Shown in pieces: positions 37,617-42,631 of a stretch of 64,000 bases of DNA (the first letter of the stretch is position 1; each line of letters opens with the position of its first letter). The notes beneath the pieces are model-generated. The model did not search any database, was not told where the DNA came from, and saw only the letters and a program-made list of their open reading frames with translations. Origin of the DNA: Clostridiales bacterium. GTDB lineage: Bacteria > Bacillota > Clostridia > Christensenellales > Aristaeellaceae. The stretch spans positions 248,001 through 312,000 of the forward strand of contig CP069419.1 in the NCBI GenBank assembly GCA_017569285.1, read 5' to 3'. The position numbers and the translations under genes were made by a program.

Positions 37617-37645
37617 TTGACACAATGCCCCATTTATGATACGAT
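37617..37645 (+). promoter_or_regulatory. Promoter of the T-box operon
   Basis: TTGACA (37617-37622), 17-bp spacer, TACGAT (37640-37645), immediately upstream of the T-box leader. Confidence 0.8.
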
Positions 37646-37649
37646 TCCG

Positions 37650-37925
37650 CTTGAATTTAACATGAATGACGATGAAGGAAATGAAGCTTCCCGCGTTGAT
37701 TTCAGAGAGCCGTCGGTCGCTGCGAGACGGTACAAAGACGGAAAGTCACTGCTTCCTGAGTTGGTTCTGTGAACATGCGGATGCATCAGTAATGGAACCC
37801 GGCCGCCCCGTAATCGGCTTTGGACTTGTTGGAGTCCGAGAGTGACTGCCTTACGGCAGTAAAATGGGTGGTACCGCGGATTGATTTCGTCCCTGATGCA
37901 TATTTGCTTCAGGGTTTTTATTTTT
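37650..37925 (+). promoter_or_regulatory. T-box riboswitch (tRNA-sensing leader)
   Basis: The invariant T-box sequence TGGTACCGCG lies at 37869-37878 within AAAATGGGTGGTACCGCGG. Upstream is the Stem I apical element AGAGAGCCGTC...GACGG (about 37705-37735) and a Stem III hairpin ACTGCC/GGCAGT (37845-37860). Downstream is the terminator CCCTGA (37891-37896) with TCAGGG (37909-37914) and a T-rich tail to 37925. Uncharged cognate tRNA should stabilise the antiterminator and turn on the two genes that follow. The specifier is not certain: a CTG (Leu) follows the helix GAAGC/GCTTC in the right strand of Stem I, which would fit the LeuA-like gene, but I cannot fold Stem I reliably by eye. Confidence 0.92.
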
Positions 37926-37941
37926 CAGGAGGATATCGGAT

Positions 37942-39360
37942 ATGGAAAAACAGATCATGACTATCACAGACTGCACGCTTCGGCAGAAGAACAGCCTTCC
38001 CGATCTCAGCTTTCGCGAAAAGCTGGAGCTGTGCCGCCTGATTGACCGCCTGAATGTGGACCTGATTGAAATGGAGGAAATCCGGCAGGTCAAGATTGAC
38101 AGCCTGCTGATCAAATCCGTCTGCACGGCCGTTTCCAGTTCCAGGATTGCCGTCCCTGTGGCATTGAATGAGGAGAGCGTCCGGATCGCCCGGGAAGCGC
38201 TCAGAAACGCGGTCCATCCGCGCCTTCAGGTGCCGGCTCCGGTCAGTTCGGTCCAGATGGAATATCTCTCCCATATGAAACCGAAAGCCATGATTGCCGC
38301 GGTCGCCGATACCATCCGGAAATGCCGGGAATTCACAGATGACGTGGAATTCATCGCGGAAGACGCCACTCGCAGCGATGCTGCTTTCCTGCGCAGCATC
38401 ATCACCGAAGCCGTCAGCGCCGGTGCCCGGACGGTTACGCTGTGCGATACGGCGGGAGCCATGCTCCCGGATGAAACCGCGGCCTTTATCTCTTCCCTGT
38501 ACCAGGATATTGAATGTCTGAGCGGGGTTACTGTCGGTTTTTCCTGTACGGACCAGATGAATATGGCAGACGCATGTGCTGTCTCCGCCGTCCGTTCCGG
38601 AATCCGGGAAATCAAAGCCGCTTCCTTCCGGACCAACGCAATTTCCCTGATGAATATCGTGCGGATCCTGGACATCAAAGCCAACCAGTTTGACGTGCGC
38701 TGCCGGATTGGTACGGAACAGATCCGGAACCTCACCAGCAAAATTGAGATGCTGTGCCGCACCGGCCTCAGCCGGTCTGTCAGTGCCGGCACGGGTACGG
38801 ATGACCATGATTCCGGTGTCATGCTGAGTACTCATGACTCCCGTGAATCCGTGATGAAGGCGGTCGACAAGCTTGGATATGACCTGACGGCGGAGGATAT
38901 GGAAAAGGTCTGGCAGTGTTTCTCCGAAATTGCGGAGAAGAAGGACCTGATTTCCCTTCGGGAACTGGATGCGATCGTGGCGACCGAAGCCATGCAGGTT
39001 CCACCGGTATACCATGATATCCAGTATGTCATCAATACCGGCAATACCATCAATGCCATGGCGCATATGAAGCTCATGTACCATGACCGGGCAATTGAGG
39101 GAATGGCCGTCGGGGACGGTTCCATTGCGGCGGCGTTCAACTCCATCGAAAAGGCAACCGGACGCCACTTCGAGCTGGAGGACTTCCAGATTCAGGCCAT
39201 TACCGAAGGACGGGAAGCCGTCGGAGAAACCATCGTCAAGCTCCGCCATGAAGGCAAACTGTATTCCGGGCGCGGTATTTCGACGGATATCGTGGGTGCC
39301 GGGATCCTGGCCTATATGAATGCCCTGAACAAGATTGTTTACGAGGAGGAAGAAGCATGA
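37942..39360 (+). CDS. LeuA-like (isopropylmalate synthase family) protein lacking catalytic metal ligands
   Basis: A 472-residue homologue of the isopropylmalate/citramalate/homocitrate synthase family: HMGL-type TIM barrel (1 to about 280; EDATRSD and CDTAGAMLPDE blocks intact) and a C-terminal LeuA allosteric/dimerisation domain (about 355-465; VGDGSIAAAFNSIE, GRGISTDIVGAG). The active site is altered. The usual TLRDGEQ is TLRQKNS here (metal-binding Asp replaced by Gln at 15), and the zinc motif HCHND is replaced by SCTDQ (about 201-205). It may therefore be non-catalytic, for instance a leucine-sensing regulatory subunit, or a different lyase/transferase. T-box controlled; its stop overlaps the next start by 4 nt (ATGA), implying coupled translation. 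RBS AGGAGG. Confidence 0.88.
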   Translation: MEKQIMTITDCTLRQKNSLPDLSFREKLELCRLIDRLNVDLIEMEEIRQVKIDSLLIKSVCTAVSSSRIAVPVALNEESVRIAREALRNAVHPRLQVPAPVSSVQMEYLSHMKPKAMIAAVADTIRKCREFTDDVEFIAEDATRSDAAFLRSIITEAVSAGARTVTLCDTAGAMLPDETAAFISSLYQDIECLSGVTVGFSCTDQMNMADACAVSAVRSGIREIKAASFRTNAISLMNIVRILDIKANQFDVRCRIGTEQIRNLTSKIEMLCRTGLSRSVSAGTGTDDHDSGVMLSTHDSRESVMKAVDKLGYDLTAEDMEKVWQCFSEIAEKKDLISLRELDAIVATEAMQVPPVYHDIQYVINTGNTINAMAHMKLMYHDRAIEGMAVGDGSIAAAFNSIEKATGRHFELEDFQIQAITEGREAVGETIVKLRHEGKLYSGRGISTDIVGAGILAYMNALNKIVYEEEEA

Positions 39361-41873
39361 AGCTCTCTTTTTCAACCCGCGGATGGAAAGAGCTCCCCTG
39401 GCCGGAGCAGGTGAAAGATGCCTCCGAACTCCGTTTTCAGGGAATTGAGGTCTATAATCTTCATAAATGTCCTTCCCTGACAGACCGGAGCGGTGTCTTC
39501 CACAAGTTCCACCGGAATGAGACCCTGCGGGAACTGCGGGAGCACCATCTGACGATCCCGTGCCTGGATACCTGCATTGACCTCGGCGCAGAAGAGGATG
39601 AAACCGGCTTCATCCCCGATCTGATCGATACGGCTGCTACCATGAAAATCCCGTATGTCGCCGTTTGTGCCCTGCATGACGATGATGAACGGATCCGGGA
39701 ACGCATTGACCGGCTGATTCCGCAGTTCTCCGAAAAGGGAATCTGCATGCTGATTAAGACTGTCGGCATTTTCGCGGATACCGGAAAGCTCCGGAAACTG
39801 ATGGATGAATATGCCTGTGACGAACTGGGCGCACTGTGGGATATGCACCATCCATACCGGGATTTCCACGAAACGCCGGATACCACCATCCGCAACCTCG
39901 GCGGATACGTCCACCATGTCCACCTTCGTGATTCGGATGATGACCTGAATTACAATCTGATCGGTGAAGGCACCATTCCCATACAGGACATGATGAACGC
40001 GCTGTCTTCGATTGACTACAACGGCTTCATTTCCCTGGAGTGGAAAACGGAATGGATGGAAGATATTCCGGACCGTGAAATCATTTTTGCGCATTTCCTC
40101 AACTATATGGGCCGTTTTGACAATCCGAAGGGCAAAAAGAAATCCCTCTATTTCAATCACGACGGCACCGGCAAATATGTCTGGAAAAAGGACGAGCTGA
40201 TCGACCTGACATTCGGGCAGGTCCTGGACCGCATGGCGGAAGAGTTCCCGGATCAGTACGCATTCAAGTACACAACGCTGGATTACATCCGTACCTATAC
40301 CGAATTCCGCGATGATGTCAACCGCTTTGCCAAAGCCCTGATTTCCCTGGGAGTCAAAGCCGGCACCAAGGTGGCTGTATGGGCCACGAATGTCCCCGCA
40401 TGGTATATCGCTTTCTGGGCATCCGCCCGAATCGGCGCCGTACTTGTAACCGTCAATACCGCCTATAAAATCCATGAGGCCGATTACCTGCTCCGCCAGA
40501 GCGATACACATACGCTGGTCATGATTGAAAGTGCGCTGGACAGCAATTACCGCGCAATTATCAATGAGCTCTGCCCTGAGATTGCGGTATCGAAGCCCGG
40601 CGAACCGCTGCACTGCAAGCGGCTGCCCTTCCTCCGGAATGTCATTACCGTCGGTTTCACCCAGAGCGGATGCCTCACCTTTGAGGAGGCGATGCGCCGC
40701 GCTGATTCCGTTACCGATGAGACACTGGCAGCGATGGCTGAACGCGTGAAACCGGATGATGTATGCAATATGCAGTATACTTCCGGCACCACCGGCTTCC
40801 CCAAAGGCGTCATGCTGACCCATTACAACGTCGTCAATGACGGCAAATGTATCGGCGACCGGATGGGCCTTTCCACCGCAGACCGCATGATGATCCAGGT
40901 TCCCATGTTCCACTGTTTCGGCATGGTCCTCGCCATGACCGCCTCCATGACCCACGGAACTACGCTCTGTCCGCTTCCCTATTTCTCTGCCAAGAACTCC
41001 CTGGCATGTATCAACCAGGAACGGATTACCTGTTTCCACGGTGTCCCGACCATGTTCATCGCCATGTTCAACCATGAGGATTACCGGAAAACGGATTTTT
41101 CCTACATGCGGACAGGTATTATGGCCGGTTCCGGATGTCCGCCCGAACTCATGAAGCGTGCTGCCCGGCCGGATGAAATGAATATGCGCGGAATTGTCAG
41201 CGTATACGGGCAGACCGAGTCTTCCCCCGGAAGCACAATGTCCGCCTGGACTGATTCGCTGGAGCTCCGTACCGAAACGGTCGGATATGCATTCCCCCAC
41301 GTCCAGTGCAAGGTGATTGATCCGGAGACCGGAAAGGAACTGCCGGACGGACAGGACGGCGAATTCTGCTCCCGCGGCTACAATATCATGAAGGGATACT
41401 ATAAAATGCCGGATGCCACCAGTGCGACCATCGACGCGGATGGCTGGCTTCATTCCGGTGACCTGGCTCGTCGGAATCCGGACGGCACCTATCTCATCAC
41501 CGGCCGTCTGAAGGATATGATCATCCGCGGCGGTGAGAATATCTATCCGAAGGAAATCGAGGAATTCATCTACACACATCCGGCAGTTGCCGATGTACAG
41601 GTAATCGGTGTTCCGGACGCGCGATACGGCGAGGCAGTCATGGCGTGCATCATCAAAAAGGAAGGCGCTTCCCTGACCGCGGAGGAAATGACCGAGTACA
41701 TCAAGAGCCATATGGCCCGCCATAAGGTTCCGCAGTATATTGAATTCATGGACACATTCCCGATGAATGCAGCCGGCAAGGTGCTGAAATACAAAATGCG
41801 CGAAGAGGCTGCTGAACGCCTCGGACTGGTCGGCGCCGCAGGAATCGATACCGCCGGCGGCGGAAAGAACTGA
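39357..41873 (+). CDS. Fusion: sugar-isomerase-like TIM barrel + AMP-forming acyl-CoA ligase
   Basis: An 838-residue two-domain protein. Residues about 1-265 form a xylose-isomerase-like/AP-endonuclease-2 TIM barrel: LWDMHHPYRD, HHVHLRD and ISLEWKTEW hold likely metal ligands, but the position usually taken by the first Glu reads LIKT, so the metal site may be incomplete. Residues about 285-820 are an ANL-superfamily acyl-CoA synthetase with YTSGTTGFPKG (about 473-483), VYGQTE, the hinge SGDLARRNPDGTYLITGRLKDMIIRGGENIYPKEIE and the catalytic Lys in AAGKVLKYKMRE. It should activate a carboxylic acid with ATP and CoA; the acid is unknown. Coupled to the LeuA-like gene under one T-box, which ties it to amino-acid supply. 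Activation of branched-chain volatile fatty acids is one possibility (inference). Confidence 0.88.
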   Translation: MKLSFSTRGWKELPWPEQVKDASELRFQGIEVYNLHKCPSLTDRSGVFHKFHRNETLRELREHHLTIPCLDTCIDLGAEEDETGFIPDLIDTAATMKIPYVAVCALHDDDERIRERIDRLIPQFSEKGICMLIKTVGIFADTGKLRKLMDEYACDELGALWDMHHPYRDFHETPDTTIRNLGGYVHHVHLRDSDDDLNYNLIGEGTIPIQDMMNALSSIDYNGFISLEWKTEWMEDIPDREIIFAHFLNYMGRFDNPKGKKKSLYFNHDGTGKYVWKKDELIDLTFGQVLDRMAEEFPDQYAFKYTTLDYIRTYTEFRDDVNRFAKALISLGVKAGTKVAVWATNVPAWYIAFWASARIGAVLVTVNTAYKIHEADYLLRQSDTHTLVMIESALDSNYRAIINELCPEIAVSKPGEPLHCKRLPFLRNVITVGFTQSGCLTFEEAMRRADSVTDETLAAMAERVKPDDVCNMQYTSGTTGFPKGVMLTHYNVVNDGKCIGDRMGLSTADRMMIQVPMFHCFGMVLAMTASMTHGTTLCPLPYFSAKNSLACINQERITCFHGVPTMFIAMFNHEDYRKTDFSYMRTGIMAGSGCPPELMKRAARPDEMNMRGIVSVYGQTESSPGSTMSAWTDSLELRTETVGYAFPHVQCKVIDPETGKELPDGQDGEFCSRGYNIMKGYYKMPDATSATIDADGWLHSGDLARRNPDGTYLITGRLKDMIIRGGENIYPKEIEEFIYTHPAVADVQVIGVPDARYGEAVMACIIKKEGASLTAEEMTEYIKSHMARHKVPQYIEFMDTFPMNAAGKVLKYKMREEAAERLGLVGAAGIDTAGGGKN

Positions 41874-41881
41874 CAGAGCAA

Positions 41882-41915
41882 AACATCCACCGGCGCAGAT
41901 ACGCCGGTGGATGTT
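41882..41915 (+). terminator. Hairpin after the ligase fusion gene
   Basis: A perfect 14-bp stem (41882-41895 with 41902-41915) and 6-nt loop, 8 nt after the stop. It is followed by ATAT rather than a T run, so termination may be weak. Confidence 0.6.
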
Positions 41916-42000: not shown

Positions 42001-42273
42001 GGTGGCATGGCTCAGTCGGTAGGACACCTTGGTAGGAACTTCAAACCGACACGTGGTGGCATGGCTCAGTCGGTAGTCCGAAGTGGTAGCTTGTATAGAC
42101 CAAAAGCGTGGTGGCATGGCTCAGTCGGTAGTCCGAAGTGGTAGCTTGTATAGACCAAAAGCGTGGTGGCATGGCTCAGTCGGTAGGACACCTTGGTAGG
42201 AACTTCAAACCGACACGTGGTGGCATGGCTCAGTCGGTAGTCCGAAGTGGTAGCTTGTATAGACCAAAAGCGT
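42001..42273 (+). repeat. Tandem array of five 54/55-nt units beginning with a tRNA-Val 5' fragment
   Basis: Five units start at 42001, 42055, 42110, 42165 and 42219, each opening with the same 22 nt as the intact tRNA-Val that follows (GGTGGCATGGCTCAGTCGGT + AG). Two tail types alternate: type A (54 nt; units 1 and 4) and type B (55 nt; units 2, 3, 5), giving order A-B-B-A-B-tRNA. The two tails share short blocks (GGTAG, ACC, CGT), suggesting common ancestry. Each unit holds the acceptor 5' strand and D-arm only, so none can make a tRNA. No gene lies in 41874-42797 besides the tRNA. Confidence 0.9.
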
Positions 42274-42349
42274 GGTGGCATGGCTCAGTCGGTAGAGCAC
42301 ATCGTTCACATCGATGGGGTCGTTGGTTCGAGTCCAACTGTCACCACCA
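42274..42349 (+). tRNA. tRNA-Val (anticodon CAC)
   Basis: A complete cloverleaf: acceptor GGTGGCA/TGTCACC with one G-T pair, D-arm GCTC-AGTCGGTA-GAGC, anticodon arm CATCG-TTCACAT-CGATG with CAC, T-arm GTTGG-TTCGAGT-CCAAC, discriminator A and encoded CCA (42347-42349). It decodes GUG. Its 3' portion is duplicated at 49072-49125, and a strong terminator follows at once. Confidence 0.95.
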
Positions 42350-42351: not shown

Positions 42352-42393
42352 AATCCGGTAGGCGTTCAAGTTCAACGCTTACCGGATTTTTTT
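42352..42393 (+). terminator. Terminator of tRNA-Val
   Basis: A 15-bp stem with one G-T pair (42352-42366 with 42374-42388), 7-nt loop, then a run of T. It begins 2 nt after the CCA. Confidence 0.93.
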
Positions 42394-42499
42394 GCGTACC
42401 CCTCAAGGGTACGCACTTTTCGAAGTCAGGAGTACGCACTTTTTTGTCAGAGGGGTACGCAAAAAGGGTACGCAGTTCACCTGAAAACTGCGTACCCTT
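42394..42499. repeat. GTACGCA palindromic repeat cluster
   Basis: Two perfect hairpins, GCGTACCC/GGGTACGC (42394-42401, 42407-42414) and a 14-bp stem (42464-42477 with 42486-42499), bracket two further GTACGCA copies near 42432 and 42455. This gives four direct and two inverted copies of a GTACGCA core in about 105 nt. Neither hairpin has a T tract. Possibly a REP-like element or protein-binding cluster of the integrated element. Confidence 0.75.
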
Positions 42500-42631
42500 G
42501 GAAGCATTTCGTTCACATCCATCGTGATGCTTTAGCCAACTTCCGTTTTTTTCACCAGAAACATAAGCAATTAACGAGCAGTTTTTCTTTCGAGTTTCGT
42601 ATGCCTAATAGGAAAAAATTTCAAAAAATAA

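Follow-up and report, generated by a model that had tools for sequence, protein, structure and literature searches.

The genome of a Clostridiales bacterium (assembly GCA_017569285.1, contig CP069419.1) holds, in a stretch of 64,000 nucleotides (positions 248,001 to 312,000, hereafter the window), a T-box leader followed by two genes on the forward strand, which we call A and B and which probably serve a leucine-controlled synthesis of leucine from isovalerate. Gene A encodes a LeuA homologue that has lost its catalytic residues, and gene B a fusion of a TIM barrel to an acyl-coenzyme A (acyl-CoA) ligase. In the reading that we favour with moderate confidence, B would activate isovalerate, a VOR-type 2-oxoacid:ferredoxin oxidoreductase (VOR) would carboxylate the product and a transaminase would complete leucine, with A, a dead LeuA, acting as a leucine-sensing brake on B. 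The A–B pair, its leucine T-boxes, the lost catalytic residues of A, the genomic context and the degeneration of B's own barrel are established in this analysis.

The T-box leader (37663..37897, +) matches RF00230 at 100.8 bits (E 4.6e-21), over the curated gathering score of 93 bits, and its antiterminator motif TGGTACCGCG at 37869..37878 (+), identified from the sequence and the Rfam alignment, lies where the original prediction had placed a T-box. Behind it follow the open reading frames of A (37942..39360, +, 472 amino acids (aa); PF00682 and PF08502) and B (39357..41873, +, 838 aa; PF01261, PF00501 and PF13193). The stop codon of A and the start codon of B overlap in ATGA (39357..39360, +), in agreement with the two coupled genes that had been claimed behind the T-box.

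A shares with LeuA, of the DRE-TIM metallolyase superfamily, the order of an HMGL-like TIM barrel (residues 8-226, 37963..38619, +; 92.4 bits), a linker and an allosteric LeuA_dimer domain (residues 340-465, 38959..39336, +; 97.6 bits), the last being the best-conserved part of the protein, and the homology is clear. Its closest solved structures are 2-isopropylmalate synthases, and a search of the PDB with the dimer domain by itself gave no useful match. The differences from LeuA lie in the absence of the Asp/HxH metal site, the pairing with B, a length that is usually about 460-480 aa rather than about 500-515 aa, and scores below every LeuA cut-off: A reaches 235.4 bits with the LeuA model TIGR00973 (cut-off 598.7) and 272.7 with the best NCBIfam equivalog (cut-off 532), and 0/16 matched models reach their cut-offs.

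The catalytic motifs of the barrel are gone. TLRQKNS stands in place of TLRD-GEQ and SCTDQ in place of HCHND, both exactly as first read, so that Q, S and T occupy the metal-ligand columns (Asp, His, His) of the window protein. We aligned 43 A sequences with 23 canonical LeuA proteins, dropping L090, which is cut at its end (L and G numbers are our handles for loci and genomes). The metal Asp is absent in 43/43 A proteins, both His are kept in L017 alone and the full triad occurs in 0/43, whereas canonical LeuA has D, H and H in all 22 proteins that cover the Asp column, the 23rd showing a gap there and both His. The alignment also rules out metal ligands at shifted positions in A, a check that the prediction of a dead-looking enzyme survives. 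Nine different residues are found at the Asp column in A, and the Arg column of TLRD holds Lys in 25 proteins, R in 15 and Q, C or H in the rest; with the triad lost and this column variable, the proposal that A might be a new C-C bond enzyme finds no support.

The two domains of A differ in what they have kept. Of the positions conserved in canonical LeuA, 44/75 are lost from the barrel of A, against 3 of 22 in the dimer domain, where 19/22 are kept. Mean pairwise identity among A proteins is 44.8% in the barrel and 62.3% in LeuA_dimer, compared with 63.9% and 48.6% among the 23 canonical proteins, and LeuA_dimer is the more conserved of the two in 100% of A pairs versus 0.8% of canonical pairs. 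In LeuA, leucine inhibits the enzyme by binding to the regulatory domain, as stated in the part of the source consulted (PMC10464499). The conservation of A is that expected of a protein retained for its sensor. In a tree of 66 rows, A and canonical LeuA separate at 100/100 support. Comparison with the 97%-identical relative L016 gives dN/dS values of 0.028 (A) and 0.010 (B), and within A of 0.034 for the barrel, 0.033 for the linker and 0.008 for the dimer domain; the value for A, together with the conservation of the A–B pair, rules out a decaying gene.

T-boxes switch genes on under amino-acid starvation, and those of the A–B loci read leucine. In 21/44 A–B loci a T-box motif is found 70-132 bases 5' of A, and the specifier codons, read by eye with the aid of a motif listing that sought CTC or CTG only, are Leu in 21/21 (18 CTC and 3 CTG, the latter in the window, L016 and L064). 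The probable specifier of the window is CTG at 37749..37751 (+), its register set by analogy (CTG-C-TTCC-T-GAG versus CTC-A-TTCC-C-GAG of L065) from the geometry common to the relatives, codon-N-4-nucleotide stem-N-GAG. The covariance-model match and these codons are the outcome of the T-box check proposed with the original prediction. An automated caller placed Leu first in 15 of the 21 T-boxes, tied it in 4, including the window, and missed it in 2. The antiterminator base U presumably suits tRNA-Leu, through its A73, and neither tRNA-His nor tRNA-Cys. Among B-only regions, the motif scan flagged 21/34; L129 is without T-box features, and the remaining 20/20 have CTC by eye, with Leu called first by the automated caller in 14/20. 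Since leucine T-boxes also stand before B where A is absent, the link to leucine is a property of B itself.

A and B travel together well beyond the window, in a group of gut bacteria. Six relatives of A came from a scan of genome contigs, one with 97% and five with 34-40% identity, in Clostridia metagenome-assembled genomes (MAGs) and one Lentisphaeria MAG, with B directly 3' of A in 6/6. A profile search across 391 genomes of the class to which the window belongs led us to judge 45 as carriers of A by score, length and adjacency. For 38 of these (37 fetched and the window genome) the region was available, with B adjoining A; in six more the coordinates place B next to A, and for one (G154) no B is listed. 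Co-occurrence, which had been suggested as a check, is thus found at 44 loci (the 38 genome regions and the six contig relatives, window included), and the canonical LeuA loci L087-L089, fetched as a comparison, have no B in 3/3. B itself has matches in 159/391 genomes at E 1e-150 or better; of the 111 matches to a near-complete fusion, 40 are in genomes with A. In none of the 34 B-only regions fetched is A found beside B, and L149 has a weak HMGL-like piece about 8 kb from the start of B.

The neighbours of A–B, counted over the 44 loci with flanks of differing length, include an aminotransferase at 11, a VorB-type alpha subunit at 9 (among them a 578-aa opposite-strand protein of L056 and two cut proteins), a gamma subunit at 7 (one also in L056) and a beta subunit at 6. 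In L063, a T-box read by eye as Leu heads the operon ATPase-VorB-VorA-VorC-aminotransferase-A-B. Representatives of the neighbours pass the cut-offs for VorB (452.2 over 399) and IlvE (465.7 over 307), and the matches of the beta and gamma subunits to 2-oxoacid oxidoreductase models fall short of the cut-offs. A CooC-like ATPase, named by eye, is near A–B in 11/44 loci, one member matching neither Pfam nor NCBIfam. In 10/44 loci an amidohydrolase-like protein, also named by eye and about 265 aa long, is found near A–B (L063 11316-12119). The window genome encodes VorB (565.6 bits over 399), with beta and gamma subunits adjacent and below equivalog cut-offs, and the branched-chain aminotransferase IlvE (NF009897, 489 bits over 307).

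We compared the 38 A–B genomes with 38 control genomes without A among G001-G048; some genomes are incomplete MAGs, and absences are weaker than presences. LeuA of either type scores over cut-off in 5/38 A–B genomes versus 28/38 controls (Fisher 1.4e-7; TIGR00973 in 2 versus 15, NF002991 in 3 versus 13), and IlvC is present in 5/38 versus 22/38 (Fisher 8.7e-5). VorB is over cut-off in 44/49 genomes with A–B or a near-complete B and in 13/27 without. LeuD-sized proteins occur in the five A–B genomes that keep LeuA and in the window genome. The latter has no IlvC and no LeuA of either type, which rules out the standard isopropylmalate route there, and no LeuA_dimer protein besides A.

Two further loci of the window genome encode HMGL-like or LeuC/LeuD-like proteins. 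One encodes a 464-aa HMGL-like protein (L012 1330-2721) with the motif TTFRDGQQ, without LeuA_dimer and with no NCBIfam match at 1e-60. The other (L093 6442-8226) holds a LeuC/LeuD-like pair beside a protein that by eye resembles a GntR regulator; the pair passes broad homoaconitase/LeuD models and fails the equivalogs LEU2 (431.9 versus 610.65) and leud (147.7 versus 245.85).

The claim that B fuses a sugar-isomerase-like barrel to an acyl-CoA synthetase is confirmed by matches to AP_endonuc_2 (a xylose-isomerase-like barrel, residues 20-233, 39414..40055, +), AMP-binding (298.9 bits) and AMP-binding_C (66.7 bits), the ligase domains spanning residues 291-682 and 733-808 (40227..41780, +). 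Within the latter we read YTSGTTGFPKG, GRLKDMIIRGGENIYP and NAAGKVLKYKM (+), which we take to be the core motifs of such ligases. Among NCBIfam models, B scores highest with a subfamily of fatty-acid CoA ligases, at 662.2 against a cut-off of 832. At the metal-ligand positions of the barrel, which we assume from family knowledge to be E-D-H-E, the window protein has K-D-H-E, Lys (K134) replacing the putative first Glu. The putative set is complete in 33/33 B-only versus 9/39 A+B proteins (Fisher 2.4e-12, a value that overstates independence since the rows are related). Identity in the barrel is 64.2% among B-only and 41.4% among A+B proteins, and in the ligase domain 79.4% and 75.5%. By these comparisons, B's own barrel mostly degenerates where A is present.

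In a careful, unrooted tree of the ligases, a branch with 84/77 support sets the A+B proteins apart on one side. A quick rooted tree, which leaves that split open, gathers 37/39 A+B rows in a clade (SH-aLRT 99) with the B-only rows basal; L067 and L068 fall outside the clade, one keeping the barrel site and one not. Of 12 barrel-less ligases in the quick tree, ten form the outgroup and two (L151 and L163) fall inside the B-only rows. The latter two, from genomes G042 and G251, are a barrel-less form of B, 66-67% identical to the window ligase.

Other ligases, marked by a helix-turn-helix (HTH)-like and a cupin stretch, have T-boxes that we read as Ile (L018, L074, L076, L078, L085 and L086) or Val (L065 and the window genome), and L018 has a further ligase with a Val T-box. 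Ten such ligases were compared with NCBIfam, including that of L021, whose HTH matches are below and cupin match above the Pfam cut-off; MbcS (NF047394) is the best model for 8/10, with none over 850 and the top at 450.9, and the cut ligase proteins of L076 and L018 have no NCBIfam match at 1e-60. The ligase of this kind in the window genome (L097 2717-5002) measures 762 aa, has an HTH-like N-terminus and a Val (GTC) T-box, and is nearest to MbcS at 442.9 bits, below the cut-off of 850. In the portion of the report consulted, purified Staphylococcus MbcS accepts 2-methylbutyrate and isobutyrate, and isovalerate poorly (PMC10026030). According to the same portion, MbcS of Staphylococcus aureus activates external branched-chain acids, as predicted for B, and feeds fatty-acid synthesis (PMC10026030), whereas B is best matched by another ligase subfamily and differs further in its fused barrel and its Leu T-box. 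With the MbcS-like ligases under Ile or Val control and MbcS poor on isovalerate, isovalerate would be left to the Leu-controlled ligase B.

Isovalerate is a short branched acid of gut and rumen. Under leucine starvation, the rise in uncharged tRNA-Leu would let the T-box antiterminate, and A and B would be made together. B would then convert isovalerate (3-methylbutanoate) to isovaleryl-CoA, from which VOR, with CO2 and reduced ferredoxin, would form 4-methyl-2-oxopentanoate, to be converted by the transaminase to leucine. A would have lost catalysis in genomes that abandoned the acetolactate/isopropylmalate route, retained for its leucine-sensing LeuA_dimer; plentiful leucine bound there would make A shut B down in trans, most likely by direct binding, a brake that would save ATP and ferredoxin, and the retained barrel may serve as the docking face for B. 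Starvation induction and the pathway part are supported by the codons and the gene context; the brake role of A we infer from the conservation pattern, and the substrate of B, leucine binding by A, the A–B complex and the direction of regulation are likewise predictions. The suggestion in the original prediction of a leucine-sensing subunit partnered with a branched-acid ligase is consistent with the Leu specifiers, the operons with VOR and aminotransferase, the rarity of LeuA and IlvC in these genomes and the way in which conservation is inverted between the two domains of A. More tentatively, and on balance somewhat doubtfully, there may have been a sensor swap: a leftover LeuA, recruited as a leucine sensor in trans, may have replaced the built-in metal barrel of an ancestral B, be it for control or catalysis, which then decayed in most lineages.

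Several observations weigh against the account that we favour. B does not need A, since 71/111 near-complete fusions are in genomes without A found, and nine A–B proteins keep a complete barrel site in B. The barrel of A is under purifying selection (dN/dS 0.034) and has conserved residues of its own, and may thus bind or convert something. No T-box motif lies directly 5' of A in 23/44 A–B loci. The window specifier is ambiguous to the automated caller, CTG being tied with TGC; that caller is itself poor on a control set of nine other T-boxes of the same genome, having missed three that by eye are Thr, Pro and Asn, with gene neighbours likewise recognised by eye. VOR and IlvE of the window genome lie about 367 kb and about 58 kb from A–B on the same contig, five A–B genomes keep both LeuA and IlvC (the same five), and VorB in 33/38 A–B genomes versus 24/38 controls, a count that leaves out G102, whose VorB is split in two, reaches only p=0.03.

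The pathway could be as proposed with A instead a scaffold or stabiliser of B, or with LeuA_dimer sensing isoleucine or another metabolite. The ATGA overlap in the window would suit a scaffold, and A matched chain 3f6g_B (E 7.2e-5), a citramalate synthase in which, we assume, the LeuA_dimer fold binds isoleucine; Leu specifiers throughout and the 19 of 22 canonical dimer-domain positions kept in A nevertheless make this unlikely. We give similarly little weight to A as a neofunctionalised enzyme, its metal-free barrel acting on a branched-chain intermediate under leucine feedback through LeuA_dimer. The selection on the barrel is what such an enzyme would show, as are positions conserved in A such as P100, E107, K113, E136, D141, R144 and D169, and the Lys at the Arg column in 25/43 could act as a Schiff-base lysine, but that column is also R (15), Q, C or H, the Asp column has nine different residues, most canonical barrel positions (44/75) are lost, and B occurs without A in 71/111 cases. 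It is very improbable that the route runs in reverse, degrading leucine via 4-methyl-2-oxopentanoate and isovaleryl-CoA, or that B is an unrelated fatty-acid ligase: VOR enzymes are reversible and the best model for B is of that kind (662.2, cut-off 832), but leucine T-boxes, because they induce under starvation, fit synthesis or uptake, and most A–B genomes are without LeuA and IlvC.

A route from isovalerate to leucine is mentioned in PMC7356843, citing Allison and colleagues (1962, 1966) on rumen bacteria, and in PMC10658910 for methanogens. It resembles the one proposed here in the predicted substrate, the reductive carboxylation and the amination, and differs in that the accounts, in the parts consulted, name no ligase gene, T-box or regulator (PMC7356843, PMC10658910); here the genes are assigned solely from their context. 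No description of a catalytically dead LeuA, an A–B pair or fusion, or a leucine T-box ligase was found in the literature searched, which mostly excluded subscription papers, and the 2008 T-box survey, in its main text as far as consulted, contains neither 'acyl-CoA' nor 'AMP-binding' (PMC2494555). Both the pathway and the folds of its components are already known; the gene assignment and the regulator look new within the literature searched. HisZ of ATP phosphoribosyltransferase is a dead enzyme retained as a regulatory subunit. A may be analogous in being a dead enzyme kept for regulation; unlike HisZ, it derives from a different pathway to the amino acid in question, and the ligase under its control would be an unrelated enzyme.

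As for other features of the window, a pattern scan alone places a sigma-70-type promoter-like site (TTGACA-17-TACGAT; 37617..37645, +) before the leader, with three sites in the region versus 4.0 in shuffles. Right behind B, a 14-bp inverted repeat seen by eye (41882..41915, +) is a possible transcript end, and it was not called as a terminator in the terminator scan. The nearby genes appear, by eye, unrelated to A–B. A 131-nucleotide tandem repeat of 100% identity (42001-42131 and 42165-42295) reaches with its second copy into the tRNA-Val(CAC) gene (42274-42349), so that 42001-42349 is a tandem partial duplication including the tRNA-Val 5' end, and right behind that gene (42389-42500) lie overlapping inverted and direct repeats with GTACGCA.

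A–B offers a testable gene pair for the activation of isovalerate and its control, separated from the Ile and Val ligases by the T-box codon, and A is clearly a candidate for the case of an allosteric enzyme whose reaction was lost and whose sensor was kept. Were the sensor swap true, the dead enzyme of one leucine pathway would be the feedback subunit of the other. If the proposed role of the pair is true, isovalerate use could become predictable from genomes, and A-like proteins would no longer be counted as evidence of the isopropylmalate route.

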